Shown in pieces: positions 1-14,226 of a stretch of DNA of 14,226 nt (position 1 is the first letter of the stretch; each line of letters opens with the position of its first letter). The stretch comes from Candidatus Raymondbacteria bacterium RIFOXYA2_FULL_49_16 (GTDB lineage: Bacteria > Fibrobacterota > OXYB2-FULL-49-7 > XYB2-FULL-49-35): assembly GCA_001789205.1 (NCBI GenBank), contig MFYT01000039.1, forward strand, positions 1 to 14,226. The letters are read 5' to 3'. Both the position numbers and the translations under genes were made by a program. A model generated the notes under the pieces. It had not been told where the DNA came from, made no database searches, and was given only the letters and a program-made list of their open reading frames with translations.

Positions 1-20
1 CATAAGCGAGTAGTAGCGAA

Positions 21-53
21 GAGCCCTGTGCGAGAAAACCGCACGCAGGGATC
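21..53 (+). ncRNA. Group II intron domain V (catalytic hairpin)
   Basis: A 33-base hairpin. The lower stem GAGCCCTG (21-28) pairs with CAGGGATC (46-53), with one mismatch at G23/A51. A two-base CG bulge at 44-45 follows, then an upper stem TGCG (29-32) with CGCA (40-43) and an A-rich loop. The AGC catalytic triad (22-24) and the two-base bulge are the hallmarks of this domain. Confidence 0.85.
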
Positions 54-56
54 CGA

Positions 57-89
57 GGGAGGGGCGCCGGGTAACCGGTGCTCCTATCC
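57..89 (+). ncRNA. Group II intron domain VI with branch-point adenosine
   Basis: GGGGCGCCGG (61-70) pairs with CCGGTGCTCC (75-84), including two G-U pairs, around a GTAA tetraloop (71-74). A60 pairs with T85, A86 is bulged, and 57-59 pair with 87-89. A86 is the expected lariat branch point, eight bases from the inferred 3' splice site after base 93. Confidence 0.83.
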
Positions 90-93
90 CAAT

Positions 94-1206
94 AGGAAAG
101 CACTGATTGTGCTGGGAGTGTTTACGCTAAACATGTGCGCTTTTGCCCAGTTGGAAAATGGAACGCACGTTTATTGGTACAAAGCCGGTGCAAATGGCTA
201 CAACCTTCAGGCCAGCCCGGGCCCGAACATCGCGGCCGGCGCCTTTATCCATGAAGGGAAAATTGTTACCTCCAACAATAGTTCCGGCCTCGGTTATGCA
301 GGCAGCAATTTCAGCTTCGGCTCCAACCCGGACGACGATCAGGGATGGTGCGGCGCCTTTTTCTCAGACGACCTCTGCAACCCGGCAAATGCGGGCGGCA
401 CAGTAACGTCAGCGTTCCTGCGCGGCGAATACGACGATTGGCCAAGCGCAAATGGCCCGCTCTGCAATGGCGGACCGGTTGCCATCCGTTGCGGCGTGGT
501 TGACGTTTCCTTTGGCATCTTGATGTGGGGCGGCGCTGCAAGCATGCCTGACGACGCTGTGTGGGCCGATCTCGACCCGATGAACACCCTCAGCTACGCC
601 CTCACCATCGTGGGCGCCGAGGAAGTCATTAATTTTACAGCGCCCCAAGGCCGTACCGATGGCGCGTCCGCTCCTCTGCTCGATGGGCAGTTTCTTGAAC
701 TCGACGTTACCGACCAGGTCAACTGGATACTTGCAAATGCAAGCGCAAGCGCCCAGTATGCCATTGTTGCCCTTTCTGATGTTGGCGTTGGCAGCACAGG
801 TAAAGCATCGATCATCGCTGCTGAAAACGGCGTCTACAGCCCTACCCATGGCGCAGCGGTCCCAAATGCTCCTTGGACAACCGATGGCAACACAGCGCAC
901 CTGGTATGCGTTGGCAACCTTGCCCAGGTCTCAACCGAAGATGGAGCAGGCGTTTCAGCATCAACAGTCTCGATCGAAAACAACCCCAACCCCTTTAATC
1001 CCACGACTAACATTTTGTATAACACGCTTGGTAACACGGGGATACTGAAAATCTTCAATGCCGAAGGTAAGGTTGTATATTCAAACACAGTCAGTGGCAA
1101 AGGCAGCCTTATATGGAACGCTGCGAACCAGCCCTCTGGCATGTATTTCTCTAAACTTATCGTTGGCAAGCGCAATGTCACAAAACGAATGATCCTAATT
1201 AAATAA
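94..1206 (+). CDS. Secreted protein with T9SS-type C-terminal sorting domain (3' exon of an intron-interrupted gene)
   Basis: A protein of unknown function. The open frame extends back to a GTG at 28, but bases 28-93 are group II intron domains V and VI. The first 22 codons of that frame are therefore not protein, and the real start lies upstream of the intron, outside the window. The exon opens with R-K followed by a hydrophobic stretch ending AFA-Q, the rest of a signal peptide. The mature part is rich in Gly, Asn and Ala. A segment near 679-774 (LDVTDQVNWIL, then a YAIVAL strand) recalls DNRLRE/CBM-like beta-sandwich modules, but this is weak. From about 985 a sorting domain begins (NPFNP at 988-1002) and continues through WNA and PSGMY to the terminal ILIK. 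It is presumably exported to the periplasm by Sec and then across the outer membrane. Expression depends on intron splicing unless the intron is defective. Confidence 0.75.
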   Translation, partial: RKALIVLGVFTLNMCAFAQLENGTHVYWYKAGANGYNLQASPGPNIAAGAFIHEGKIVTSNNSSGLGYAGSNFSFGSNPDDDQGWCGAFFSDDLCNPANAGGTVTSAFLRGEYDDWPSANGPLCNGGPVAIRCGVVDVSFGILMWGGAASMPDDAVWADLDPMNTLSYALTIVGAEEVINFTAPQGRTDGASAPLLDGQFLELDVTDQVNWILANASASAQYAIVALSDVGVGSTGKASIIAAENGVYSPTHGAAVPNAPWTTDGNTAHLVCVGNLAQVSTEDGAGVSASTVSIENNPNPFNPTTNILYNTLGNTGILKIFNAEGKVVYSNTVSGKGSLIWNAANQPSGMYFSKLIVGKRNVTKRMILIK

Positions 1207-1254: not shown

Positions 1255-2949
1255 GTGATGATTACATTCCTTAATTGGATTTCTTTTGTAGGTCTCATCA
1301 TACTATTGTTGTTGGCATGGAATACCGGTCCTTTCGCCGCACAGTTTAATGAGATCGACTCATTGTTTCCACTTTCCCCCTATGAGGCCCTTGACGAATC
1401 AACGCTTTCACCGGTAATTCTTTCCGATTCGGCCTATAACAGTACTACCCATGCAGGCAGGACATACCGCGTCATCCGGGTAAGATATTTCAGCCATATG
1501 TGGAAAGACGGTCCCTGGTACGGCTCCATGAGTATCGTTATACCCGATACAATCGTGAACGCCAAACAAGGGTTTTTGGCCATGGCGCCCGGTGGTTCGA
1601 TCAGCATACAGGACAGCATGAACTTTGAATCGGAATACGGGGAATACAACGCCCTTGAATACGGCATTCCGGTCGCGAGCATCCCGGACCAGGGAACCCA
1701 TTTCGGTCTTTCTGATATACATGCCATTTCCGATTCAATCCATGCCATTGGATTTGAGACCTCCGATTTCTCCTGGCTTGCCATATATCCTTCCATAGCG
1801 TTAAAATCACGCGGCATCACCATGGTAAGCTGTCTTTTGGGGTTTCCCGTCCATTCAGCCGTTCATCTGGGCTCCTCAATCACCGCCAACCATGCATGGC
1901 GGTGGCCCATTTTTGACGGCAGAATAAAAGGGCTGGCAGCCACCGGAGATATCGGCCATTATCGTGATTGGATTCCGCTCAATTGTGATTCGACGCTTCC
2001 CACGCGGGTCGTACATTACAGTTGCCTGGACTCATTTAACCGGGCCAAAGTCGACACACTGACGGACCCTTTTATTTTTGGAAAGGATTTGAAAGTTCCA
2101 ATCCTGCAGATTGCCGGGACCAATGACTTTGCGTCACCCCCGTATCACATTCCCGGATTCCTCACCGGTCTTGCGGGTCCTGTCCACCTCGTAAATGCGG
2201 CGAATTATCCACATGGTTGCGCTTCCTGGACCCACGTGGAGTCATTCCGCATGTGGATAGACCATGTTTTCTTTAACAGGCCGCTGACCCGCATCAGCAT
2301 CGGAGAGGTGGCAAAGACATCTGACCGCTTGAATGTGACGGCTTATATCAACACTGACACTTCCGTACAGATTCAGGACGTCCAGCTTAATTATACGGCA
2401 TATTCCGACACGAATTACTTCAAGTCCGTGCTTTTACCGGGTATGCCGGACAGCAATTATATGAATGCCGTATGGGTAAGTACACCCATGACCCTGAATG
2501 GGGGGGGCTGGCAGGCCGGTATAGCGCTGAAAGCCTTGACAGAAACGAATCTTGCCTATTTTGCCAGCGTGAAGGACAGGTACAACAACAGGATTGGGCA
2601 TGCTTCAACCTCAATAAACTACGGACTAATTTCAGGAATCGGCACTGAATCCGGGCCTGGCCGCAAGGAACAAACGGGGTTCACCATACACTGTGCGCCA
2701 AATCCATTTAACCCCCTTGCAACAATCACTGTTGACATTCATTCCCCTGCCGCTCATTCCCTAAGCATATTTAATTCCAGGGGCATGCTAATAAGGACAT
2801 GGTTCATTGCTTCGACCGCGAAGGGTTCGTATAAGATAACATGGGATGGCAGGAACTGCAATGGAAATGCGGTTGCCGGTGGACTGTACCTCATAAGACT
2901 GATCGCCGGTGACAAGGTTTATTCAAGAAAAGCGGTGTTACTTCGCTGA
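1255..2949 (+). CDS. Secreted alpha/beta hydrolase, PhoPQ-activated pathogenicity-related protein-like, with T9SS sorting domain
   Basis: A 564-residue protein beginning GTG-ATG; either codon could be the start, and nothing upstream reads better. Residues 1-30 form a long hydrophobic export signal ending FAAQ. The central region resembles the PhoPQ-activated/PqaA branch of alpha/beta hydrolases. A GSSIT elbow gives candidate nucleophile Ser208, a GTND turn gives Asp291, and an NYPHG segment gives His320. The order and spacing suit a Ser-Asp-His triad. After residue 340 comes a beta-rich domain like the one that follows the hydrolase in that family, with an alternating polar/aromatic pattern and the segment GGGWQAGIAL. 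The sorting domain starts near NPFNP (about residues 482-486) and includes ITWDGRNCNGNAV and a terminal VLLR. The substrate is unknown; an esterase or peptidase acting outside the cell is plausible. The family is inferred from motifs, not from a search. Confidence 0.7.
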   Translation: MMITFLNWISFVGLIILLLLAWNTGPFAAQFNEIDSLFPLSPYEALDESTLSPVILSDSAYNSTTHAGRTYRVIRVRYFSHMWKDGPWYGSMSIVIPDTIVNAKQGFLAMAPGGSISIQDSMNFESEYGEYNALEYGIPVASIPDQGTHFGLSDIHAISDSIHAIGFETSDFSWLAIYPSIALKSRGITMVSCLLGFPVHSAVHLGSSITANHAWRWPIFDGRIKGLAATGDIGHYRDWIPLNCDSTLPTRVVHYSCLDSFNRAKVDTLTDPFIFGKDLKVPILQIAGTNDFASPPYHIPGFLTGLAGPVHLVNAANYPHGCASWTHVESFRMWIDHVFFNRPLTRISIGEVAKTSDRLNVTAYINTDTSVQIQDVQLNYTAYSDTNYFKSVLLPGMPDSNYMNAVWVSTPMTLNGGGWQAGIALKALTETNLAYFASVKDRYNNRIGHASTSINYGLISGIGTESGPGRKEQTGFTIHCAPNPFNPLATITVDIHSPAAHSLSIFNSRGMLIRTWFIASTAKGSYKITWDGRNCNGNAVAGGLYLIRLIAGDKVYSRKAVLLR

Positions 2950-2990
2950 ATCAGGGAATTAAACCGAAAAGTGTAGGTATTTAATATCTG

Positions 2991-2996
2991 AGGAGA
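2991..2996 (+). promoter_or_regulatory. Ribosome binding site that selects the start at 3003
   Basis: AGGAGA lies at 2991-2996. ATG occurs at 2998 and again at 3003, in different frames. The spacing fits 3003, and the frame at 2998 does not encode the signal peptide. Confidence 0.75.
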
Positions 2997-3002
2997 AATG
3001 GT

Positions 3003-4688
3003 ATGGTTTTTGCCCTGACAATCGCAATAGGTCTTTCAATTGTTTCAACGCTTTATTCTTTGACCGTTACGCCCGCTGAGTGGGTTCCTGCTTCCCTGGC
3101 GTCCAAGATTCAGACGTCCCCAGCCTCCCTTACCGATGTTCAAATTCTTTCCAACATCGATACCTTCCAGAACCGTATTGCCGCGCTGAATCAGAGCAAT
3201 ACGTACGTTCAGAAATTCACCGCCCAGATCAGGGAAAACGTACTGCATCTCTATCGAGAATACAACCTGAACCATACTCGCAGCGCATATGGAAGCATGG
3301 ATTTTACGGCCGCGGAATGTCTTGGGGTAGTGAAAAGCGACTTGAATTTCTATCTCGACAGGCTCCAAACAGGCGCTAACCCCTTTTATGTTCCTGGAAG
3401 AAACATGGAAAAGGCCTATTGGAACGATTACTCGGGCAGTCTGGGTCAATACACCATCCTCACACCAAACATATGCCTCTATGCAACGCCAAACCCCCTG
3501 GTAATTTCCCAGCAGGACGATCCAGGCCAGAGACTCCAGAGTGAAGGATACATCACTCTGTGCAGGTTCAAAAAGGATTACCAGTTCGACGACAACAAGC
3601 TTCAGGTAGCGATTAAAGCAATGATTCTCGATGCGGCAAGGGATGTGCATGTCGATCCCTTCAGAGTATATACTACTGGTTTTTCGTTCGGTGCACAGAC
3701 TTGTCTGCGTGTAACCTGGCGTTATCAGGATTGGTTTGCCGCTTCTGTTCCCGTGCACAATGACCTTAATCCCGTTAATCACGCTGGCATATGGTCTAAC
3801 CTAGCCAATCTTATCAACACTCCTACCAGGCTCATCAATGGGTCCGGGGACAACTACTACAGGGATTCTACCTATCGTTTTATGCTCGAAAACGGGTGTC
3901 CGGTACAAGAGTTTATGATAGCCGCAGGCCACAATGCGGATATTCCCTTCAGAGACAGCCTTTCCCTGCTGGTGAATTTCCTCGATAGCAATGTCCTCAA
4001 TCCCTATCCAAAACGGGTGAAGCACAATATGGAATTTGTCGGCTATTCCCGCGCTTTTTGGGTAAACGGGAAGGTAGCCAATGCAAGTGGAACCATCAAT
4101 ACCGGGTTCGATGTGTCTGTATCAGGAAATACCATCACCATAACCAGTGCGGATGCCAATATCAGGGGATTCGATTTTTATTTGAGCGATTCCCTGCTGA
4201 ATATGAACCAGCCGGTCGTTGTCGTGCACGGCAGTGATACCCTGTACAACAGCGCGCCTTCGGCCAAAATATCAGTAACGCTCACGGCAGGCACGTATCA
4301 AAGCAGTAACATCGAACGGCTGTTGTGGGAGGAACTCGATTCGATCCAGTATGCTATTTTCGGATACCGGTCACAGTACAACACCACCACGGTTGAAGAC
4401 GGCCAATCTTTTTCCGGTAATGCACAAGGAAATGGGGCCCTTGCGGCTGCGCCCAACCCGTTCAATCCGGCAGTGACAATCACGGTTTCTGGCTGCACTG
4501 CTGCTTTGAATTCCGGTATGTCACTCATAATTTACGATCTTAATGGCCGGTTGGTCGCAAATCTTACTTCGAAACTGGTCAATGGTCGCGTTACCTGGAA
4601 TGCTGTAAATATGCCTAGCGGGCTTTATGTTGTCCAGTCGCGTATCGGGAAGAAATCGCTTATCAAGGCAGTCACTCTTTTAAAATAA
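3003..4688 (+). CDS. Secreted esterase-like alpha/beta hydrolase with T9SS sorting domain (paralogue A)
   Basis: 561 residues. Residues 1-20 are a signal peptide. A helical N-terminal region (about 25-130) begins with WVPASL. The catalytic core follows: a GFSFG nucleophile elbow with Ser228, Asp283 in GSGDN, and His310 in AGHN, an order typical of feruloyl-esterase and poly(3-hydroxybutyrate)-depolymerase-like hydrolases. After LNPYPK (about 332-337) comes a beta-rich region with YSRAFWVNGK and WEELDSI, then the sorting domain (NPFNP 485-489, WNA, PSGLY, terminal TLLK). A protein of the same architecture is encoded at 10902-12632. The two share WVPASL, the VDPFR/IDPFR strand before the elbow, LNPYPK, YSRAFWV and the post-catalytic domain. 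The strand that in the paralogue reads PRGY...YPLI is altered here, so substrate preference may differ. A secreted carboxylesterase role is inferred. Confidence 0.78.
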   Translation: MVFALTIAIGLSIVSTLYSLTVTPAEWVPASLASKIQTSPASLTDVQILSNIDTFQNRIAALNQSNTYVQKFTAQIRENVLHLYREYNLNHTRSAYGSMDFTAAECLGVVKSDLNFYLDRLQTGANPFYVPGRNMEKAYWNDYSGSLGQYTILTPNICLYATPNPLVISQQDDPGQRLQSEGYITLCRFKKDYQFDDNKLQVAIKAMILDAARDVHVDPFRVYTTGFSFGAQTCLRVTWRYQDWFAASVPVHNDLNPVNHAGIWSNLANLINTPTRLINGSGDNYYRDSTYRFMLENGCPVQEFMIAAGHNADIPFRDSLSLLVNFLDSNVLNPYPKRVKHNMEFVGYSRAFWVNGKVANASGTINTGFDVSVSGNTITITSADANIRGFDFYLSDSLLNMNQPVVVVHGSDTLYNSAPSAKISVTLTAGTYQSSNIERLLWEELDSIQYAIFGYRSQYNTTTVEDGQSFSGNAQGNGALAAAPNPFNPAVTITVSGCTAALNSGMSLIIYDLNGRLVANLTSKLVNGRVTWNAVNMPSGLYVVQSRIGKKSLIKAVTLLK

Positions 4689-4696
4689 ATTCAATT

Positions 4697-4704
4697 GGAA
4701 GGAA
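4697..4704 (+). promoter_or_regulatory. Ribosome binding site supporting a GTG start
   Basis: GGAAGGAA ends six bases before GTG 4711, fixing a GTG start for the response regulator. The short gap after the previous stop suggests co-transcription. Confidence 0.65.
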
Positions 4705-4710
4705 CATCTT

Positions 4711-5364
4711 GTGGGAAAACATCTGAGAATAGTCCTTGTCGACGATGATTGCGATTTCCTTGAAATAAGCGCTGCCAGGCTCAGGTTGATGGGATACACC
4801 AGGACCATCTGTTTCAGCAAGGCCGCCAAAGCGCTTTTTGCGCTTCCCCATCTACACATAGATACAATCATTTCGGACAATTACATGAAGGGCATGTCCG
4901 GCGGCAGGTTCTTTTCGGAAATAAGGAAAAGGGATGAATATTCCTCCGTCAAATTTGTGGCGGTCTCGGGCGCCGCTCCCCAGCGATGGACAAAAAATGC
5001 CGACGCATTCTTCAGCAAGCCAGTTGACTTTAAAGCTCTTGACGGGCTGTTGTCCGGAATGAAGGGGGACGCATCCGACCGGCGGATGTACCGGCGCTAC
5101 AATATCAACGGGCCAATCAGCGTCAAATCCGGCCCTCTTCCCGTTGCCGCCATACGCGACACAGGTCTTTCCGGCGTCAGTTTTATAAGCCCGGTTGAAT
5201 ACCCGGTAAGCCGTCCAGTAACTTTGAAGATAAAGACAAATACGCAGAAATCTTATATGCCCAGCGAAGGTTTAATCGTATGGAAAAAGAAGGAGTCTTT
5301 AACCGGCTATAGCTACGGCGTCAGGTTCACGCAATCCATGCTTTCAGGGCTTTGCCCATGCTGA
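4711..5364 (+). CDS. Response regulator with REC and PilZ domains
   Basis: 217 residues, cytoplasmic, with no export signal. Residues 5-118 are a receiver domain: acidic cluster DDD (11-13), phospho-acceptor Asp56 in the IISDN strand, Ser86 in AVSG, and Lys103 followed by Pro. Residues 122-210 look like a PilZ domain. It has an arginine motif RRMYRR (124-129) and, in place of the classical D-x-S-x-x-G, the sequence DTGLSG (150-155), in which the central Ser is Gly. Cyclic di-GMP binding is therefore likely but not certain. There is no DNA-binding domain, so output is probably by protein contact. The gene starts 22 bases after the esterase gene and 29 bases before the LmbE-like gene, pointing to one operon. 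No histidine kinase is in the window. REC and PilZ assignments are firm from motifs; the process controlled is not known. Confidence 0.85.
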   Translation: MGKHLRIVLVDDDCDFLEISAARLRLMGYTRTICFSKAAKALFALPHLHIDTIISDNYMKGMSGGRFFSEIRKRDEYSSVKFVAVSGAAPQRWTKNADAFFSKPVDFKALDGLLSGMKGDASDRRMYRRYNINGPISVKSGPLPVAAIRDTGLSGVSFISPVEYPVSRPVTLKIKTNTQKSYMPSEGLIVWKKKESLTGYSYGVRFTQSMLSGLCPC

Positions 5365-5393
5365 AATCGAGAAGATAAATAAAGGTGATGTAA

Positions 5394-6215
5394 ATGACCC
5401 GAATTTTCATCTTACTCATTACGGTAACCGTCCTCTCCATTTCAATAGGATGCAACAAAAGTACGAGCCCCTCACCGCCAGCCGTCAGTACTATTATATT
5501 GGCTGATTTGATCACAAACGGCGCTTCCGTTATGTGGATAGGAGCTCATCCGGATGACGAAACCGCCCTGGCGGGCGTCCTGCTGGCCAAGGCTTCGCTT
5601 GAACTGAATAATTCATGCCATTTGATTTCCTTCACTGCCGGTAAATACGGGGGATGCCACCCTAATAGCCTCCAAAACGGCACATGCCCCTGTCCTGATT
5701 CCAATTATTGCCCTGACACGATGGCGGTCGCACGGTCAAAAGAATTCTCCGATATGGCGCAGTTCATAGGTGCAGAGTGCCGGGTTCTCAATTGGGATGA
5801 TGCGTTCCTAAACGGGCAAGTTCAGTATTTTGAGCAAGCTGTAGATACCGTCATCAAACTGATACGAAGCATCAAACCAAGTATAGTGATAACCCATGCC
5901 AGTAACGGTGGATACGGAAAACAGGACCACATCTATGTCAATCAGATTGTCCGGAAAGCATATCAAACACTCCCTTTGGCCGAGCGTCCGGATTACTTAT
6001 ATTACGCCATTCACATCCTCCCGGACGGAATCGATACAGAACAGGTTACGGACAGCATTGACGGCAGGGCATATTCGATAAAACTCGCCCGGACATATTG
6101 GGAAAGCGTTATAGATGCAAGCCGGTTTTATCAGACGCAGGGATTAGACCTGCAGGCGCAATCCATTACGGACACATATCATTGGAATGGGTTTTATCTT
6201 GCTGGATCACATTGA
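5394..6215 (+). CDS. PIG-L/LmbE-family deacetylase, predicted lipoprotein
   Basis: 273 residues. The N-terminus is a short hydrophobic signal ending in a lipobox-like SIGC with Cys20, followed by a Ser/Pro linker, so it is probably an anchored lipoprotein. The LmbE signature AHPDDE is at 51-56, the R-x-x-E helix motif at about 114-118 (RSKEF), and a second metal-site segment THASNGGYGKQDH ends at His179. These residues define zinc-dependent N-deacetylases such as GlcNAc-PI and mycothiol-pathway enzymes. Between the first motif and the helix is a cysteine-rich loop with Cys88, 98, 100 and 106, not usual for the family; it may form disulfides or bind a metal. It lacks the C-terminal sorting domain of its neighbours, so it uses a different anchoring route. 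A start with GGTG about seven bases upstream is reasonable. The substrate is probably an N-acetylated sugar, by inference. Confidence 0.83.
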   Translation: MTRIFILLITVTVLSISIGCNKSTSPSPPAVSTIILADLITNGASVMWIGAHPDDETALAGVLLAKASLELNNSCHLISFTAGKYGGCHPNSLQNGTCPCPDSNYCPDTMAVARSKEFSDMAQFIGAECRVLNWDDAFLNGQVQYFEQAVDTVIKLIRSIKPSIVITHASNGGYGKQDHIYVNQIVRKAYQTLPLAERPDYLYYAIHILPDGIDTEQVTDSIDGRAYSIKLARTYWESVIDASRFYQTQGLDLQAQSITDTYHWNGFYLAGSH

Positions 6216-6340
6216 GGACAATTCTCTTGCAAGACCGGCCAGTACTGGGAGGAAATGCTTCCAGCGAAATTCGCATGTGGATCGGTGGCGCTGAAAATGA
6301 CGGTAAAATGAGAGTTTTAACCAATTGCATTGTGAAATAA
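6216..6340 (+). pseudogene. Fragment of an FAD-dependent oxidoreductase
   Basis: The translation in the frame ending at the TAA at 6338-6340 reads ILLQDRPVLGGNASSEIR followed by MWIGGAEND. This is a strongly conserved stretch of FAD-dependent oxidoreductases of the FAD_oxidored type, where it directly follows the nucleotide-binding beta-alpha-beta fold. The GxGxxG loop that should precede it and several hundred residues that should follow are absent. The fragment begins essentially at the LmbE stop codon. It is best read as a leftover from a deletion. The family call rests on motif recognition. Confidence 0.68.
6310..6331 (+). repeat. Direct repeat copy 1 (22 bases)
   Basis: The sequence starts GAGAGTTTTAACCAAT and ends GCATT. 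It matches 8589-8610 at 21 of 22 positions (T versus C at the 17th base). It sits ten bases before the first mini-ORF. Confidence 0.7.
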
Positions 6341-6553
6341 ATGGCTCAAATTTTCATCATACTCATTTTTCTGGTTTCCTTCTCTTTTGCCGCCAGAACC
6401 ACATACGAGTCCAATAACGACAATTTTCTCACATGTATTGAATGGAACGGCAAAGCGAACAATGGTAGGTGTGTGGCGTCAGGTATGTACATTTACCGGG
6501 TCAATATCGGAGATGATTGCGTGAAGACCAGGAAAATGATTGTGGTTAAATAA
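6341..6553 (+). CDS. Mini-ORF: signal peptide joined to the C-terminal half of a sorting domain
   Basis: 70 residues. Residues 1-18 are a clear signal peptide ending SFAA. After about a dozen polar residues the sequence becomes IEWNGKANNGRCVASGMY, then continues to a terminal IVVK. That is the second half of a FlgD-Ig/T9SS type A sorting domain, with the NPFNP half missing. No mature cargo remains between the two parts. The start directly follows a TAA in the same frame, and no ribosome binding site is visible. It looks like a secreted-protein gene whose middle has been deleted. An expressed small secreted peptide cannot be excluded. Confidence 0.5.
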   Translation: MAQIFIILIFLVSFSFAARTTYESNNDNFLTCIEWNGKANNGRCVASGMYIYRVNIGDDCVKTRKMIVVK

Positions 6554-6617
6554 CAGTGCACATGCAATCCGACATATCCTCAATTATATTAACCTTAACT
6601 CCTTACTGCAGGAAGAA

Positions 6618-6624
6618 AAGAGGG
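6618..6624 (+). promoter_or_regulatory. Ribosome binding site that selects the start at 6631
   Basis: The purine run AAGAGGGG (about 6617-6624) ends six bases before ATG 6631. The reading frame stays open back to 6556, but the signal peptide only makes sense from 6631. Confidence 0.65.
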
Positions 6625-6630
6625 GAAATC

Positions 6631-8313
6631 ATGAGGTTTTATTTGCGTATTGCGGCGGAATGTTTTATTTGTTTTGTTTTTCCTTTTATGGCACAAGCGC
6701 AACCGGTATTGACGGCCTTCCCCAAACCTTTGCAATTTTATTGCCGGAATGCGCAAGATTCCGCAGTCGCGGCGGTGACTGGAACCGTTACCGCTGCCGG
6801 CCCTGAATCTGTTACGGTCACACTGTACAAAAACAACATACAAACCCTTCACCTTGCGCAGCGTCTGCACTATTCCGGCGCTACGGCTTCCTTTGGCTTT
6901 TCGCCAAAAATACATGCGGAGCTTTCCATGTATAAATTTGAACTCCGCGTCGATACGGCGCTTTATGCCTCGGCCGACAGTGTGGTATGCGGCGACGCAT
7001 TTACCATTGACGGCCAATCCAATTCCGTTACTCAGGCATCCTACAATTATTCCAGCAAATGGATCCGCTCATTTGGTTCCTCCACCACAGACGCAGCACC
7101 AAGCCAGGCGGACTCGACGTGGGCCGTGGCACAGTCCATGACCATATATAGCCATGGAGCTATCGGCGTTTGGGGCATGCAGGTTGCCCGTCACATTATT
7201 GAAAACAGCCAAATTCCGGTTTGCATCATTAACGGCGGTTATAATGGGACGTCCATTGAATCGCATGCCCGCGACCTCACGTATTCCTCCATTTACGGAC
7301 GGCTGTACAATCGGGTACGCCGAGCGGAGTTGTTGAACGGCATCAGGGCTGTTTTCTGGCACCAGGGAGAGAGCGGCTACGATCCGGCCATGTACCGGAC
7401 CAATTTCCTTAATCTCTGCAGCTCCTGGAAAACAGATTACCCTTCGATTGAGCGATATTACCTCTTTCAAACCCGCCCGGGATGCGGTATCGCTTCAGGC
7501 CAGGATATCGTGCGTGAGGCGCAGCGTATTATTCCCGTGGGAAGGCCGGACATTTCCATCATGTCCACCGTGGACCTGCCAGGCCATGACGGTTGCCATT
7601 ATGCGGCCAATGGGTACATCCAGATGGGCGACCAGCTTTACCGGTTGGTGGCCCGTGACTTTTATGTTTCTTCAGACACGGCTCGGATTTGTCCGCCCAA
7701 CATCCAGGAGGCCCGATTCGCCGACATGGCGCACACCCGCCTCATACTCCGGTTCGATCAACCCGTCCTTGTCCCGGCGGACACAGGCATAAGGCACGCT
7801 TTTGCCCTGGGCAAGACCGTAACCGCTTTGGATTCCGTAAAGGCCGATACGGCAGCCAATACCATCACCATTTACTTTCACGTTCCCTCGGACTCCGCTA
7901 CTATCAGCTATGGTCCCGATACCTGGAACAGCGCCACTTATGAAGGCCCCTGGTTATACAATACACGCGGCATCGGCGCGCTGACCTTCCATCGTTTTAT
8001 TGTTTCTGCCAACACGGAGGATGAACCCGGAACAATGGACCTGGAAAACCATTCCCTTACAGTTGCACCCAACCCATTTAATCCGAGCGTGAATATTAAG
8101 GTCGCAGGTTGGAAGAACGGAACAGAGCTCAAGATATTGAATATAAATGGCAAGGTTGTGGTGAATCTGACGACAGTTTTGAACAATGGATCGCAGAAAT
8201 CGGGATTGCGGCAGGTTTCCTGGAATGCTTCAGGCCATGCATCGGGAGTCTATGTTGTAATGCTTAAAAATGGCAATTCCAAACTTAAACAGAAGGTAAT
8301 GCTTATTCGATAA
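6631..8313 (+). CDS. Secreted SASA/sialate O-acetylesterase-type SGNH hydrolase with T9SS sorting domain
   Basis: 560 residues from ATG 6631. Residues 1-23 are a signal peptide ending MAQA. A beta-rich domain follows (about 25-120), as in sialate O-acetylesterase-type proteins. The SGNH core then starts with DGQSN (127-131; nucleophile Ser130), has NGGYNGTS around 202-209, WHQGES at 243-248, and the catalytic D-x-x-H as Asp320 and His323 in LPGHDGCHY. This is the arrangement of the SASA domain and CE6 acetylxylan esterases, which remove O-acetyl groups from sialic acids or xylan. A beta domain around 345-465 precedes the sorting domain (NPFNP about 481-485, VSWNASGHASGVY, terminal MLIR). Which acetylated sugar it acts on cannot be read from sequence. 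Confidence 0.85.
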   Translation: MRFYLRIAAECFICFVFPFMAQAQPVLTAFPKPLQFYCRNAQDSAVAAVTGTVTAAGPESVTVTLYKNNIQTLHLAQRLHYSGATASFGFSPKIHAELSMYKFELRVDTALYASADSVVCGDAFTIDGQSNSVTQASYNYSSKWIRSFGSSTTDAAPSQADSTWAVAQSMTIYSHGAIGVWGMQVARHIIENSQIPVCIINGGYNGTSIESHARDLTYSSIYGRLYNRVRRAELLNGIRAVFWHQGESGYDPAMYRTNFLNLCSSWKTDYPSIERYYLFQTRPGCGIASGQDIVREAQRIIPVGRPDISIMSTVDLPGHDGCHYAANGYIQMGDQLYRLVARDFYVSSDTARICPPNIQEARFADMAHTRLILRFDQPVLVPADTGIRHAFALGKTVTALDSVKADTAANTITIYFHVPSDSATISYGPDTWNSATYEGPWLYNTRGIGALTFHRFIVSANTEDEPGTMDLENHSLTVAPNPFNPSVNIKVAGWKNGTELKILNINGKVVVNLTTVLNNGSQKSGLRQVSWNASGHASGVYVVMLKNGNSKLKQKVMLIR

Positions 8314-8357
8314 AAGTCGGCTTTTTGAAAAAAGACGTCTTTACCCATGGAGCGTAT

Positions 8358-8495
8358 GTGAATCCTATACGAGCGTCATTGGTTTTGGCTGCGTTGTTTC
8401 TTCTTACAGCCGGGTTGGGCGCGCAACCTCCCCAGCAGCGGCCGCTGATACAAAAATCCAACTTCACGGCACGAAAAACGACTGTGGTTAAATGA
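8358..8495 (+). CDS. Mini-ORF: signal peptide joined to the tail of a sorting domain
   Basis: 45 residues from GTG 8358, with GGAG five bases upstream. Residues 1-23 are a signal peptide (NPIRAS, a hydrophobic core, then GLGAQ). A short Pro/Gln-rich stretch follows, and the protein ends FTARKTTVVK, which matches the last ten residues of a T9SS sorting domain. There is no cargo region. Like the ORF at 6341-6553, it looks like the two ends of a secreted-protein gene brought together by an internal deletion. The intact ribosome binding site means it may still be translated. Confidence 0.45.
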   Translation: MNPIRASLVLAALFLLTAGLGAQPPQQRPLIQKSNFTARKTTVVK

Positions 8496-8588
8496 GTGGC
8501 AGGATCAAGACTCTTTGAATATAGCCGGATTTAAGTTCTGAACGGAGCGTGATAAAGCGGCCCGATCTGTTTTAGAATTACCCCTCCC

Positions 8589-8610
8589 GAGAGTTTTAAC
8601 CAATCGCATT
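8589..8610 (+). repeat. Direct repeat copy 2 (22 bases)
   Basis: Matches 6310-6331 at 21 of 22 bases and likewise lies between a gene remnant and the next secreted-protein gene. The flanking bases are unrelated, so the identity is confined to this block. Confidence 0.7.
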
Positions 8611-8628
8611 TGGAATTACTATCAATCG

Positions 8629-8644
8629 TCCGACTTAAATCGGA
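8629..8644 (+). repeat. Short inverted repeat upstream of the LRR gene
   Basis: TCCGA and TCGGA flank the six bases CTTAAA, a five-pair stem. No T run follows, so it is not a standard terminator. It could be an operator or chance. Confidence 0.3.
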
Positions 8645-8663
8645 GTTATATTATTGTACAACA

Positions 8664-8670
8664 AAGGAGA
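8664..8670 (+). promoter_or_regulatory. Ribosome binding site that selects the start at 8678
   Basis: AAGGAGA ends seven bases before ATG 8678. A TTG in the same frame at 8654 lies upstream of this site and would put charged residues before the signal peptide, so it is rejected. Confidence 0.75.
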
Positions 8671-8677
8671 AGAACGA

Positions 8678-10873
8678 ATGAGAACATTTTTGATCGTACT
8701 CATCGCATCATCGTGCTTGCTGGCACAGACGTATTCCGACGATTCGCTAATCGTCAGATCTATCCTCGATTCAAACGGGTGGACCGCTTTTTCCGTGGGC
8801 GATGTCGCGCAGGTGCAGGACAACAGGATTGTGTCCCTAAACCTCAGCGGATATTGGTACGGCAGGCGTCTGCGTATCAGCGCCGGCGTATACACGAGCA
8901 AACCGACTTTTCTGGTAATCCAACAACTGCCTTCCACAATCGGAAACCTGACCGGACTTCAGACCCTCAACCTCAACGGCAACCAGTTGACCTCTCTGCC
9001 GGATGAAATCGTAAATCTGGCCAACCTGCGCAATCTGTATCTCAATAACACGCAGTTGTACGTCATCGATACCATGAATCCGTATGCAGGCGACACTACT
9101 GTTTTCAGGACATTCAGCCTTACGGGGAAGATCAGCAACTTCAAGGACCAGCCGATCGATTATATGAACAACTGTCTGAAGGTGCTGCCCGATTCCCTAG
9201 GCAAACTCACGAATTTGACCGCGCTCCATCTGAACAACAACCTGCTCTCCAGCCTTCCCGCTGCGCTTGGAAACATAAACGGCCTGCAGGAGCTGTTGTT
9301 AAACAGCAACAATTTATCGGCATTCCCCGCTACTATAGTAAGCCTTACAAATCTTAGGAAACTCTGCCTTGGCAATAATTTCATATCAGCCGTTCCTGCC
9401 TCAATAAACAACTGTGCGCTGCTCGACTCGCTTGAACTTGGGAACAACAGCCTGACATCTGTACCCGATGAAATCGGAGACCTGGACAGCCTCAGGTACC
9501 TTCGCCTGAACGATAACCGGATATCCAACCTTCCCGACGCACTTGGCACTTTAAACAGGCTGCTGCTGCTTTCGGTGGCGCGAAACGCATTGACCGCACT
9601 GCCTTCAACCATTGGCAATCTTGTTAATCTGCAATCTCTGTATGTGGATTTCAACCAGATCACCGCGCTTCCCGCTTCCATCGGCGGCTGCACGCAACTG
9701 CGGCGCCTCTCTGCCGCGCACAACAGGCTTGCGGCCCTTCCTGACCAAATCGGCAGCCTTGGATATCTGTACGATGCACAATTCCAGGAAAACCTGCTGA
9801 CATCCATCCCCGATGCCATTGGAACCATGGGCAATCTGACAACATGGCAAAACCAGGTCTGGCTGCACCTTGACCATAACCTGTTGACCACCGTACCGGG
9901 GACTATCGGGGACATAGGCGAGCTCTATGCTCTCAAACTCCATAACAATCGCTTGACCAGCGTGCCGGGTAAACTTGTCAAGCCAGGTGCCTTGCGAATG
10001 CTCGAACTGCAGCATAATGAACTCACCAGCCTGCCTGACTCGTTTAACCTCCATAAGAACTATTTCTATTTTAAGGTGTTCAACAACAGACTTACCAGTC
10101 TCCCGAATTTCACACGGTGCGATTTCAACTGGTTCTATGCGTATAACAACCAGATCACCACCATTCCCGACTCTTTGATCACCTGCACTCTCGGCGATCT
10201 GCAGCTCCAGAACAATAAACTTGCAAGCCTTCCGGACTCGTTTGGCAACATCCGGGTGGGTACTCTGTATATTGAGGACAACCAGCTTACCAGCCTTCCC
10301 GAATCCTTCTGCAAGATAAACAATTTAACGTATTGCTATTTGAGCAGAAACCAGCTAAGCGCCCTACCGGATTCCTTTGGAAACCTCAGCCGTCTGAGCT
10401 GGTTCAAGGTGGACGGCAATCAGCTGACAGCGCTCCCAAACTCAATCACCCGGATATCGCTCTATTCCGGGTGCACAAGTTTTGATAAAAACATATTGTG
10501 CAACATGCCGCCGGCCATGGTTACCTGGCTCAATGCACAGGATCCGGACTGGGCTTCCTCGCAGGACTGCGGCGGGGTTGTGGGAATAGACAAAAATCCT
10601 GATGGAAAACTTGTCTTTTCCCTGGCCCAGAACACGCCCAACCCGTTCAATCCTTCAACAGCGATCAGCTATTCATTGCCGTCAGCCTGTCGCGTGACGC
10701 TTGAAATGTACACCATAAACGGTACCCTTGTGACCACGTTGTTTGATGGGGATAAAATCGCCGGAACACATGCGGCAGTTTGGAACGCTGATGGAGTAAG
10801 TTCCGGAATATATTATTACAAACTCCGGGCCGGAGAATTCGCGGCAACGAAGAAATGCTTGCTGGTAAAGTAA
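8678..10873 (+). CDS. Secreted leucine-rich-repeat protein with T9SS sorting domain
   Basis: 731 residues from ATG 8678. Residues 1-17 are a signal peptide ending LLAQ. A cap (about 18-80) contains SNGW and RIVSLNLSG, as in bacterial and plant-like LRR proteins. About 20 repeats of 22-24 residues follow (roughly 82-600) on the pattern LxxLPxxIGxLxxLxxLxLxxN, the SHOC2/bacterial type. After the second repeat an insert of some 25 residues breaks the register (YVIDTMNPYAGD to KDQPIDYMNN). Later repeats become irregular, with aromatic residues in concave positions (YFYFKVFNN, WFYAYNN), a possible binding face for sugars or protein. The sorting domain starts near residue 652 (NPFNP) and ends LLVK. 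LRRs generally bind partners rather than catalyse, so a surface adhesin or substrate-binding role is inferred. The next gene begins 28 bases later with its own ribosome binding site, suggesting an operon. Confidence 0.85.
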   Translation: MRTFLIVLIASSCLLAQTYSDDSLIVRSILDSNGWTAFSVGDVAQVQDNRIVSLNLSGYWYGRRLRISAGVYTSKPTFLVIQQLPSTIGNLTGLQTLNLNGNQLTSLPDEIVNLANLRNLYLNNTQLYVIDTMNPYAGDTTVFRTFSLTGKISNFKDQPIDYMNNCLKVLPDSLGKLTNLTALHLNNNLLSSLPAALGNINGLQELLLNSNNLSAFPATIVSLTNLRKLCLGNNFISAVPASINNCALLDSLELGNNSLTSVPDEIGDLDSLRYLRLNDNRISNLPDALGTLNRLLLLSVARNALTALPSTIGNLVNLQSLYVDFNQITALPASIGGCTQLRRLSAAHNRLAALPDQIGSLGYLYDAQFQENLLTSIPDAIGTMGNLTTWQNQVWLHLDHNLLTTVPGTIGDIGELYALKLHNNRLTSVPGKLVKPGALRMLELQHNELTSLPDSFNLHKNYFYFKVFNNRLTSLPNFTRCDFNWFYAYNNQITTIPDSLITCTLGDLQLQNNKLASLPDSFGNIRVGTLYIEDNQLTSLPESFCKINNLTYCYLSRNQLSALPDSFGNLSRLSWFKVDGNQLTALPNSITRISLYSGCTSFDKNILCNMPPAMVTWLNAQDPDWASSQDCGGVVGIDKNPDGKLVFSLAQNTPNPFNPSTAISYSLPSACRVTLEMYTINGTLVTTLFDGDKIAGTHAAVWNADGVSSGIYYYKLRAGEFAATKKCLLVK

Positions 10874-10888
10874 TTAAAACGATAATTA

Positions 10889-10895
10889 AAGGAGA
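10889..10895 (+). promoter_or_regulatory. Ribosome binding site of the paralogue B esterase
   Basis: AAGGAGA lies about six bases before ATG 10902, closely resembling the sites before 3003 and 8678. The 28-base gap to the LRR stop contains no terminator. Confidence 0.65.
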
Positions 10896-10901
10896 AATAG
10901 T

Positions 10902-12632
10902 ATGAGCCTTACAATAACTCGTGCAGGGTTTCTGATGATCGCGACAGTCATTGTTATAGCAGCGCTTTCCGGTAACGCTACGGCTGCAGCAAGCTGGGTA
11001 CCGGCCAGCCTTGTTGCACGGGTGAGCGCCGCTCCTGCGACAGCAACCGATGATTCCATCAAGAATATCCTGATACCAGACTACGAAACCCGGATCGACG
11101 ATCTTGATACAGGCGTCGCTTTTATTAAACGTCATATTATTCAGCTCCGCGATAATGTTTTAATGCTTTACCAGCAGTACAACAGGGGCTATTCTTATGA
11201 CTATGACTTCCGTACTTTCAACGCTGTCTTGGAAGACATGGGTTTTTATCTGCCGCGGCTCGAAAGCAAAGTAAATCCGGACAACGACCTGCCGCTGCGT
11301 ATGATGAGGAAGCCATATCTGGGGGGTGATAACAAGATTGGTTGTTACTGGGTGATGATCCCAAGGGGATACACCAGCGACAAAGCGTATCCTTTAATCA
11401 GTACAGATCAGATGCAAATGAGTTTTATTGATAAATTCATGAGGGTTGTGACGAATTCCGGATATATTGCGGTGGGCGAAAACGCATCACTAACCGACGT
11501 GGCGCACGATCTGCATATCGATCCTTTCAGGACATATACGGGCGGTTTTTCGCAGGGCGGTCATACTTCCATGCGTTCGGCATGGTGGAGGCCCGACAGG
11601 TATGCGGCGTGCGTTCCGGTGTCTCCCGATCTCCGTCTTCCAAACCAGGCTTCGTACTTCTACTGTGTAAAAGCCTTGAAAAATGTCCCTGTCCGCATAC
11701 TCCAGGGGGATTATGACGGATATATCGACGGCACAAAATATGTGTACGAGGTCATGCAGGAGGCTGGATGCCCGGTTGAATTCATGACGTTTCTTGGAGC
11801 CCATGAGCCCATACCATGGATAGACCCCGCCAGTTTTCCCCTTATCACAACCTTTTTTGACCAGCATGTGCTGAACCCCTACCCTAAGACGGTCTATCAT
11901 GCGGTGGAAGCCGGCCAGGTCGCGTATTCGCGTGCCTTCTGGGTGGACGGCAAACTTGCCCGCAACCAGGTTATCGGCGGTTTTAATCCCACGTATACGG
12001 TAACAGCGGACAAAGCGGCAAATACCATCACTATTGATTCCGCTGACGCCATATTCACCTCATTCGACTTTTATCTTTGCGACAGTCTTGTTGACATGAC
12101 CAGCCCCGTCAATGTGGTCAAAAACGGGACATCGCTCTTCTTTGGCGCTGTTCCCACCAACGGGAAGCTGACGGTGCTGATCTCCACGCAGTACACCATT
12201 CCCGCAACAGCGACGACAAAGGCCTCGATAATCACCTCCCAGCAGTTGACCGGCGGCGTGACCAGGAACCAGTGGCAGGAACTGGATTCAATCAGGTGCC
12301 TGATTTTCAACGATTGCAGCGATACCCTTCCCTCAACAGCTGTTAAAAAAGCGGAAAAGCCATTGCCCGGCAATGCCGGTATTACCGTAAGCCCGAATCC
12401 ATTCAATCCACGTACGGTCATAAGCATCAAGAATCTTGTACCAAGCAGCAAAAAAAATGAGATACAGATATTTAATATCCATGGCAAATTGATTCAGACG
12501 CTTTCTGCTCCCTCCCTGGTTCTTGGCGCCGGCTTATCCTGGGACGCGTCGGCCCAGCCATCGGGCATATATATCGTAAAGGCCGTCGTGGGGGGCCAGG
12601 TGCTGGCAAAACAGATGACGCTGATCAAATGA
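10902..12632 (+). CDS. Secreted esterase-like alpha/beta hydrolase with T9SS sorting domain (paralogue B)
   Basis: 576 residues. Residues 1-30 are a signal peptide ending ATAAA. As in the gene at 3003-4688, a helical N-terminal region begins with SWVPASL. Here the core is closer to a textbook esterase: VMIPRGYTSDKAYPLI, a GGFSQGGH elbow with Ser217, Asp270 in LQGDYDG, and His301 in GAHEP. Poly(3-hydroxybutyrate)-depolymerase and feruloyl-esterase-like hydrolases have this order. LNPYPK, YSRAFWVDGK, NTITIDSADA and WQELDSI mark a post-catalytic beta domain shared with paralogue A. The sorting domain has NPFNP at 499-503, then WDASAQPSGIY and terminal TLIK. Pairing with the LRR gene in one operon suggests they act on the same surface or substrate. 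The ester substrate is not known. Confidence 0.8.
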   Translation: MSLTITRAGFLMIATVIVIAALSGNATAAASWVPASLVARVSAAPATATDDSIKNILIPDYETRIDDLDTGVAFIKRHIIQLRDNVLMLYQQYNRGYSYDYDFRTFNAVLEDMGFYLPRLESKVNPDNDLPLRMMRKPYLGGDNKIGCYWVMIPRGYTSDKAYPLISTDQMQMSFIDKFMRVVTNSGYIAVGENASLTDVAHDLHIDPFRTYTGGFSQGGHTSMRSAWWRPDRYAACVPVSPDLRLPNQASYFYCVKALKNVPVRILQGDYDGYIDGTKYVYEVMQEAGCPVEFMTFLGAHEPIPWIDPASFPLITTFFDQHVLNPYPKTVYHAVEAGQVAYSRAFWVDGKLARNQVIGGFNPTYTVTADKAANTITIDSADAIFTSFDFYLCDSLVDMTSPVNVVKNGTSLFFGAVPTNGKLTVLISTQYTIPATATTKASIITSQQLTGGVTRNQWQELDSIRCLIFNDCSDTLPSTAVKKAEKPLPGNAGITVSPNPFNPRTVISIKNLVPSSKKNEIQIFNIHGKLIQTLSAPSLVLGAGLSWDASAQPSGIYIVKAVVGGQVLAKQMTLIK

Positions 12633-12666
12633 CAAAGAAACCTAATGGTAAATAGTTGGGGTTTTA

Positions 12667-12846
12667 ATGAATGCAACTGAAATGGCGCGTCAATTGAAAG
12701 CGGCGGGTGAACGTCATCTGGCTGAATTCATTCCCGGCTCTTGCGGTTCATCCAGGGAAGTGAACCGATGGGGCATAGTGCAAACCTCGATCGATTTCAG
12801 GCTGCAGAACGCGAAAAACGCTGAAAAACTTCAGAAAGAGGCGATT
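12667..12846 (+). pseudogene. Fragment resembling a GH4-family glycosidase
   Basis: The frame from ATG 12667 encodes MARQLKAAGERHLAEFIPG and, after about ten residues, WGIVQTSIDFRLQNAKNAEKL. A G-(D/E)-R-H-x-x-E-(F/Y)-x-P block followed by an R-rich helix resembles the C-terminal part of NAD-dependent GH4 glycosidases (alpha-glucosidase, alpha-galactosidase or galacturonidase type). The NAD-binding N-terminus and the remaining C-terminus are absent. The frame stays open to 13056, but the later part overlaps the deacetylase gene and looks like unrelated sequence. It starts 34 bases after the esterase stop, without a clear ribosome binding site. It is best read as a remnant. The family assignment is a motif impression only. 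Confidence 0.42.
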
Positions 12847-12940
12847 AGAAACAGATCGATAAAGTGGAACCGAGCGGGTAACGATAAAATAGGTTTGGAA
12901 CGGCCCCCTTTTTTTTCCGTAACTTTAACCGGACATTACT

Positions 12941-14226
12941 GTGTTTTTATATTTTATTACCCTGGTTGTATGCGCTGTCATGGTTTATCCACAAACCATT
13001 CCCACGCCCACCTTCTGGCCCGGCAGCAAAACCGCCGCAGTTTCGCTGACGTATGACGACAATCATCCGGTCCAACTGAAATACGCCGTTCCCGAAATGG
13101 CGAAACGCAATGTCAAAGGCACTTTTTTCATTGTTACCGGTGATGCAGGGTGGGGAGCTTCCTACCAGTGGCAACCTATTGACTGGAACCAGGCCATTGC
13201 CATGGCTGATTCGGGGCATGAAATAGGCGGTCATGCCGTCACCCATTCGCCTTCAGTCTCTGAAGTCAGGCCGGCCCTCGACTCTCTACAGTTGCGGTTT
13301 CCGGGAAAGAAATGGTGGACCTGGGCCTATCCTGGAGGCAATTCAGACGCCATGAGCGAAGTCAAACGCTGGTGTATCAGCGCTCGCGGCTGGAATGAAC
13401 AAGGTATAGAGGACAATGTGCCGGCAAATCCATACTTGATTAAAACCATCGGTAATGTCGGAACGATCGCTGATATTGAAAATGCGGTCAACAAATCTGG
13501 ATGGCTGGTGGAAACCATTCATTGCATTTATGGAAGTTCCGGGGAGTGTTCGCTGGGGTCTACCGCTGCGTTAGGTGACTACATAGCCCACCTGGACACT
13601 TTGTCAGCGCGCCGTTCCCTCCTCTGGATAGCACCGTATGGCGATGTTTTTCGGTATATTCAGGAACGCGAAAATGCCACTATTACCCTCTCGGCATCAG
13701 ATGCAATGTCACAAACCTTCAGTTTTACAGACACTCTTCCGGATTCCATCTATAATCTCCCGCTGACCTTGTCCATGTCACTCCCTGCGGGCTGGACAGG
13801 CTGTAAAATCGAGCAAAATGGTAAAGGGCTTTCGCCGGTACTGCAACAAACCCGGGTGATGTTTGATGCTGTTCCGGACAATGGGCCTATTGTTTTGAGT
13901 AAAAGGACTTTACCTGCAAGCCCTTTCAATGCGACGCTTTGGGATTCTGGTACGCCTGAAAGCGGAAGCGGTCCTGACTTGATGGTATATCTTGCGCCGC
14001 AGGGCAGGGCAAATGGCGCCGCGATTATTGTTTGCCCTGGTGGCGGTTACGGAACATTGAAGATTACGGAAGAAGGCACTCAGGTGGCCCAATGGCTGAA
14101 TACCCAGGGAATTGCGGGGATAGTATTACCCTACCGGCTTGCGCGCCATCCGGTTCCGCTGGAAGACGGGCAGCGTGCGGTTCGCCTTGTCCGGGCCAAG
14201 GCTGCTGAATGGGGGTTGGATACGGC
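12941..14226 (+). CDS. Polysaccharide deacetylase (CE4-like) fused to an acetylxylan-esterase-like alpha/beta hydrolase, truncated by the window end
   Basis: 428 complete codons are visible and the frame runs off the window. The start is taken as GTG 12941, because the frame has a stop at 12926-12928 and this codon opens a signal peptide (MFLYFITLVVCAVMVYPQ). No clear ribosome binding site is seen. The first domain is CE4-like: SLTYDD with Asp39 and Asp40, GGHAVTH with metal ligands His98 and His102, and WAYPGG at about 128-132. These define metal-dependent deacetylation of N- or O-acetylated sugars. A beta-rich linker (about 245-320) follows. The second domain (from about 345) has VCPGGGYGTL, an oxyanion-loop motif, then YRL and an HPxPLxDGQRAVRLVR helix, as in BD-FAE/acetylxylan-esterase alpha/beta hydrolases. 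Its nucleophile would lie beyond the window. Two de-acylating domains in one exported chain suggest removal of acyl groups from one polysaccharide. Confidence 0.82.
   Translation, partial: MFLYFITLVVCAVMVYPQTIPTPTFWPGSKTAAVSLTYDDNHPVQLKYAVPEMAKRNVKGTFFIVTGDAGWGASYQWQPIDWNQAIAMADSGHEIGGHAVTHSPSVSEVRPALDSLQLRFPGKKWWTWAYPGGNSDAMSEVKRWCISARGWNEQGIEDNVPANPYLIKTIGNVGTIADIENAVNKSGWLVETIHCIYGSSGECSLGSTAALGDYIAHLDTLSARRSLLWIAPYGDVFRYIQERENATITLSASDAMSQTFSFTDTLPDSIYNLPLTLSMSLPAGWTGCKIEQNGKGLSPVLQQTRVMFDAVPDNGPIVLSKRTLPASPFNATLWDSGTPESGSGPDLMVYLAPQGRANGAAIIVCPGGGYGTLKITEEGTQVAQWLNTQGIAGIVLPYRLARHPVPLEDGQRAVRLVRAKAAEWGLDT

Follow-up and report, generated by a model that had tools for sequence, protein, structure and literature searches.

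A group II intron end at the translation start of a secreted-protein gene, and a putative set of introns carrying start codons of their own

The window, by which we mean the whole 14,226-nt stretch of DNA analysed, opens on the 3' tail of a genuine group II intron in sense orientation and passes from there directly into the gene of a secreted protein (Table 1). The Rfam model RF00029 is matched at 19-93 on the plus strand over its full length with 40.8 bits (E 3.1e-5), which score is marginal, the gathering score being 40; and the D5-D6 fold reaches -40.8 kcal/mol against -25.6 for shuffled sequences (z -4.8), with none of the 200 shuffles as good. In group II introns the branch-point A is expected 7-8 nt before the 3' end, and the terminus is expected to be AY; here an internal U85-A86 bulge in D6 presents the branch-point A 8 nt from an intron end that reads AAU. 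The presence of an intron with D5 and D6 and its sense orientation, both proposed in a preliminary description of this DNA, were thereby borne out. Family A, to which this copy belongs (see below), has an A opposite the catalytic-triad G of D5 (GGAUCC), where the usual partner is U; and this feature, together with the marginal Rfam score, makes the catalytic fitness of the window copy uncertain. As to the gene that follows, its product ends in a Por_Secre_tail domain (Pfam, E 1.2e-7), has at least five paralogues of 56-68% identity in the same genome, and gives 149 matches there, mostly to the C-terminal tail alone. The remainder of the window (1255-14226) is mostly a run of secreted proteins that share similar C-terminal sorting tails, and a response-regulator-like ORF lies at 4711-5364.

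Table 1. Features at the start of the window, with their positions and the basis of each assignment.
Feature	Positions	Strand	Basis or remark
Intron bases preceding D5	1..18	+	Codons H-K-R-V-V-A, in frame with the downstream gene
D5 catalytic hairpin	19..54	+	RF00029 and RNA fold
D6, with branch-point A at 86 and 3' end AAU at 91-93	55..93	+	RF00029 and RNA fold
Putative 3' splice junction, at the boundary of start Met and codon 2	93..94	+	Intact-start paralogues
3' exon, encoding a secreted protein from its codon 2 onward, with signal peptide RKALIVLGVFTLNMCAFAQ and type IX sorting domain	94..1206	+	

The last base of the intron coincides with a codon boundary of the open frame that runs to 1206, and two paralogues of the same genome with intact starts indicate which boundary this is. 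The first (C76) reads GAGGAGGATGTAC-ATG-AAA-AAA-GCA-CTG-ATC, the second (C66) AAAAGGAGGAGA-ATG-ATG-AGA-AAA-GCA-CTG, and the window sequence that follows the intron, /AGG-AAA-GCA-CTG-ATT (a slash marking here and below the edge of the intron), aligns exactly with both starts, the N-termini being MKKALIAVGV and MMRKALVGVL versus RKALIVLGV in the window. Since position 94 corresponds in this alignment to codon 2, the intron would have been inserted directly after the start codon, precisely between it and codon 2, the 3' side of which placement comes from the paralogues and the 5' side from the sister copies described below. The phase-0 splice site after position 93 that the preliminary description had put forward therefore stands, on the evidence of both the frame and the paralogues, whereas its location of the intron inside the signal-peptide codons needs amendment: the site is indeed at the N-terminal edge of the signal peptide, but the paralogues place it directly after the start codon. 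The same description had warned that a start at GTG 28 would amount to the translation of intron RNA, and rightly so, that codon being within D5; for this reason we rejected GTG 28 as the true start.

Base 1 of the window is likewise base 1 of its contig (C39), in a genome of 5.43 Mb and 112 contigs that contains 16 group II D5-D6 matches, among which two families, A and B, have near-identical 3' ends located at contig ends. The 5' part of the window intron is missing because of a repeat-induced assembly break. Family A comprises three copies: that of the window (C39:1), C48:1, and C39b (C39:148656-148748), the last being 92% identical to window 1-93. The copies C39:1 and C48:1 are 99% identical as far as the contig ends, which suggests that they are recent mobile copies. 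A phase-0 signal peptide follows the intron in C39:1 and C39b, where the frames remain open for 370 and 323 codons, respectively, and no long frame is present downstream of the third copy, C48; among the genomes of the phylum, the relatives of family A are weak matches only.

These data bear on the possibility that the intron end is a dead relic, the open frame in the window being then the 5' UTR of a gene whose start is at another position, such as GTG 28 or an internal ATG. The marginal Rfam score, the A opposite the triad G and the contig end at this point would agree with such a reading, but the window gene has no ATG of its own at codon 1, where the paralogues do have one, and the near-identity of C39:1 and C48:1 suggests recent mobility; we consider this explanation very improbable.

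The copy C39b is informative about what precedes D5. There, GGAGG-ttaacg-ATG-CTG-TCA-GTA, a Shine-Dalgarno (SD) motif with an ATG 6 nt downstream, stands before the stretch equivalent to window 1-18, and the frame thus opened continues through D5 and D6 as far as a signal peptide (MLSVHKRVVANSPVRENRTQGSVGGVPGNRRSYPN-RIFFLIFLSVSLSFGQ); frames that stay open by chance over ~100 nt of GC-rich D5-D6 are, however, not rare. C39b, which is the one family A copy where such a pre-D5 start can be read directly, has just ~170 nt ahead of a decayed D5 (-31.6 kcal/mol), and is, judging from these features, a splicing-dead relic that retains a fused frame into another secreted protein. In the window the frame is open, in the phase of the C39b SD-ATG, up to the contig edge; the intron-borne ATG, whose position is beyond the assembly, would by analogy sit 12 nt upstream of base 1.

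Family B is represented by eight 3' ends in the same genome, with phase-0 open frames of 624, 507, 471, 245, and 173 codons; downstream lie signal-peptide starts (C104, C84, C46, C97), a receiver domain (C95), and a FolE2-like start (C100), and the copies in C66 and C102 have no usable start in phase 0. That of C66 (L033) is situated ~50 nt upstream of a window-gene paralogue that keeps its own SD-ATG. With L144, a relative of family B in a different genome of the phylum, as the query, the 5' ends were found: all seven, at contig ends, read ...ATG/GTTAACCTGGC, most of them with an SD, as in AAAGGAGATTGATT-ATG/ and AAAAGGAGCGGGAAA-ATG/. The introns of this family begin with GTTAACC and not with GUGYG, so that a search of the same genome for RBS-ATG-GTGYG, which gave 8 matches versus 9 in the reversed control, was uninformative. 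In C84, the one copy of family B with a directly readable pre-D5 start, AGGAGGAACCT-ATG (AGGAGG-ATG) lies ahead of D5 and in the same frame, and L144 has an in-frame ATG at the equivalent position; the relatives of family B in another genome (G024) have a stop in that frame, and their 3' flanks are without such a gene start.

Several identical D5-D6 ends before different secreted proteins would also be expected if, as with the intron C.te.I1 of Clostridium tetani, scattered D5/6 modules served as 3' acceptors, alternative or in trans, through which a shared 5' exon is joined to different surface-protein exons, and the C. tetani ORFs after D5/6 likewise start inside D5/6 (PMC3919590). Nevertheless, the 5' ends of family B (7) are similar in number to its 3' ends, are at separate loci and have each an RBS-ATG, which correspondence fits separate complete introns; and the copies are dispersed, not tandem. 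We rejected alternative acceptors of the C. tetani type, there being no tandem modules nor one 5' half accompanied by many D5/6, and give this explanation very little credence. The 5' exons of both family B and the complete copy described next are, moreover, RBS-ATG sequences and not the terminators that group IIC introns target.

A complete copy exists in the same genome in contig C60, whose 5' junction, with an RBS upstream, is GGGAGGAATGT-ATGA/GTGCGCC. Its D6 contains AAGGAGG-ATG-TCT-ACT-CGA-C before the exon (TAAGGAGGTTATGT directly before the ATG, exon AAATCACG), and the 3' part as a whole reads GTAAGGAGGTTATGT-ATG-TCT-ACT-CGA-CGC-TCT-ACT-CGA-C/AA-ATC-ACG; consequently, the sequence of the predicted spliced product, MKITNIVIMAALLTAAGLLMSC (MKITN..), and that of the unspliced one, MSTRRSTRQITNIVIM (MSTRRSTRQITN..), are both in frame and encode the same lipoprotein. 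The preliminary description had expected a 5' exon with a Met codon, and the sister copies agree, namely all seven family B 5' ends with their ATG and C60 with RBS-ATGA/GTGCG, the 5' exon of the window copy itself being outside the assembly. A 31-bp stretch of D1 is common to C39b and C60, which links family A to the class of introns with an ATG in D6. At ~757-1630 of C60 (G000, L342) D5 is split by ~0.9 kb with the group II-like motifs GGTGAAAGTCCAGTC and ATGAGCCGTATGAG, so that C60 is a probable twintron nested in the D5 loop.

We examined how far that D6 arrangement extends. In 167 genomes of the phylum, a D6 pattern from which the ATG had been omitted matched ten times, every match having an ATG in D6, and the reversed-pattern control gave none; the D6-class SD-ATG is also present in the genomes G034 and G010. 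With the ATG-containing pattern, the GTDB species genomes yielded at least 112 stretches in more than a dozen phyla, including Nitrospira, Ignavibacteriales, Deltaproteobacteria, Spirochaetia, Omnitrophota, Facilibium, Actinomycetota, Dehalococcoidia, and Scalindua, many of these loci being at contig ends of metagenome assemblies. Viral contigs searched with this pattern, or with the family A D5, gave no match. Among the matches listed, 78 of 80 have an SD-like motif no more than 20 nt away, and 62 of 80 have Q following MSTR, which means that the exon starts with AA. Of the 78 with enough flank, 57 keep the frame of the ATG open for at least 40 codons, the corresponding counts for the two other frames being 5 and 7. 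Judged by eye, the downstream products look like signal peptides, GroES, HtpG, adenylate kinase, glutamine synthetase, IspH, RidA, and ThiS. The complete copies, from several phyla, have the 5' exon ATGA/GTGYGCC in eight instances and ATGG/ in one, and most keep the frame whether spliced or not, as exemplified by the pairs MKKNIAVF versus MSTRQKNIAVF and MIKYHVGVDV versus MSTRLKYHVGVDV. Their IEPs are of 444-447 aa with RVT_1, the two full-length IEPs matching RVT_1 only. A conserved TTCAT in D1 of this class is complementary to AUGA and, an assignment made by conservation only, is probably EBS1.

Another alternative to be weighed against these counts is an ordinary intron that depends on splicing only and came to lie after a start codon by chance or through target pairing, the ATG frames being then coincidental and export splicing-dependent. 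The D5-D6 of the window is in fact largely intact, with its bulged A, and the complete D6-class copies do give in-frame exon joins upon splicing; but coincidence accounts poorly for an ATG in each of the ten unbiased D6 matches, for the frequency of the SD and for the excess of open frames in the ATG phase over the other two, and the relic C39b holds its frame without a working intron. We therefore regard the splicing-only explanation as unlikely, though less so than the two considered above.

We instead propose, with a probability of roughly three in four, that these are introns that insert at translation starts and carry a portable SD-ATG near their own 3' end, and that the window copy is one of the set. 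Insertion would take place at the ATG/ or ATGA/ of a host gene, the site being probably chosen in the D6 class by pairing of EBS1 with AUGA, and the portable start would be located either in the D6 loop, as in C60, G034, G010, and many phyla, or just before D5, as in families A and B. Splicing would join the native ATG to codon 2; failing that, ribosomes would initiate at the intron-borne ATG, in frame with the exon, and the unspliced message would probably be translatable, yielding the same protein but headed by a short foreign stretch, of the form MSTRQ.. in the D6 class and of ~35 residues in family A. Insertion, therefore, need not silence the gene, whether the intron is spliced or not. 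What is read from the sequence is the insertion after start codons as well as the intron-borne starts and their frame in C39b, C84, C60, and the D6 class. A further claim, toward which we incline with less assurance, is that this represents a new and widespread target specificity, consisting in retro-insertion at start codons through EBS1-AUGA pairing, with an intron-encoded SD-ATG in D6 (or between D4 and D5) that would leave any gene so invaded, even an essential one, translatable when unspliced. The preliminary suggestion that export is conditional on splicing found no support, in view of the in-frame SD-ATG of related copies and the fused frame kept by C39b; secreted proteins would rather be often invaded because signal peptides begin with ATG-Lys/Arg (ATG-AAA/AGA), a preferred ATG/A target, and not for the regulation of export.

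The closest precedent is C.te.I1, a class B group II intron of C. tetani (McNeil et al., PMC3919590) that has four alternative D5/6 modules and in which the start codons of downstream surface proteins lie inside D5/6 in frame with the 3' exon and the unspliced transcript is coding; that system, however, has a long-ORF 5' exon and tandem alternative acceptors, whereas the present 5' exons consist only of an RBS and an ATG, and the copies are apparently separate introns at different gene starts. The domain VII introns of the Bacillus cereus group similarly have extra 3' sequence beyond an ordinary D6, but PMC3261151 mentions no start codon or Shine-Dalgarno sequence, while the added D6 sequence here is an SD-ATG unit. 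A 2015 review (PMC4424553) gives three target specificities for group II introns, namely homing sites, terminators, and attC; the group IIC introns, whose sites are attC or lie just after terminators, resemble the present ones in an insertion preference that limits host damage, and differ in that the present introns target the translation start and bring a replacement. The Thermosynechococcus F3 introns (PMC2882425) are also near a start codon, being flanked on each side by a start codon of an RT ORF, but constitute a single twintron site and not a general start-codon target. We found no description of start-codon targeting or of an intron-borne SD-ATG in the open-access papers that we searched, and an earlier description may exist elsewhere.

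If the proposal is true, translation starts would have to be counted among the sites for which group II introns are specific, and a mobile ribozyme would neutralise its insertion in two ways, splicing itself out and donating an RBS and start codon. For many phyla, the proposal would account for the introns found before apparently essential genes, those with GroES-, HtpG-, and adenylate-kinase-like starts. It would also provide a natural system where the choice of splicing sets the N-terminus of a protein and perhaps its export, and annotated N-termini of the form MSTRQ... become suspect.

Three further observations pertain to the wider set of genomes. In a contig binned as Nanoarchaeota (L223, JAHJDQ010000208.1) there is an intron of the D6-ATG class whose SD and MSTRQ start look bacterial, so that mis-binning or a recent transfer is possible. 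In the genome G058 (L081-L089), two other multi-copy intron families insert before a recurring CCGTTTAAATTCCG or CCGCAAGACTGGCG and not at gene starts. Finally, G073:C101 (L179) and G094:C93 (L180) have an extended D6 with AAAGGAGAAAG-TTG-AAA-GTC-GTC-TAC-TCG-AC, which may be a form of the portable start with TTG as its initiation codon.
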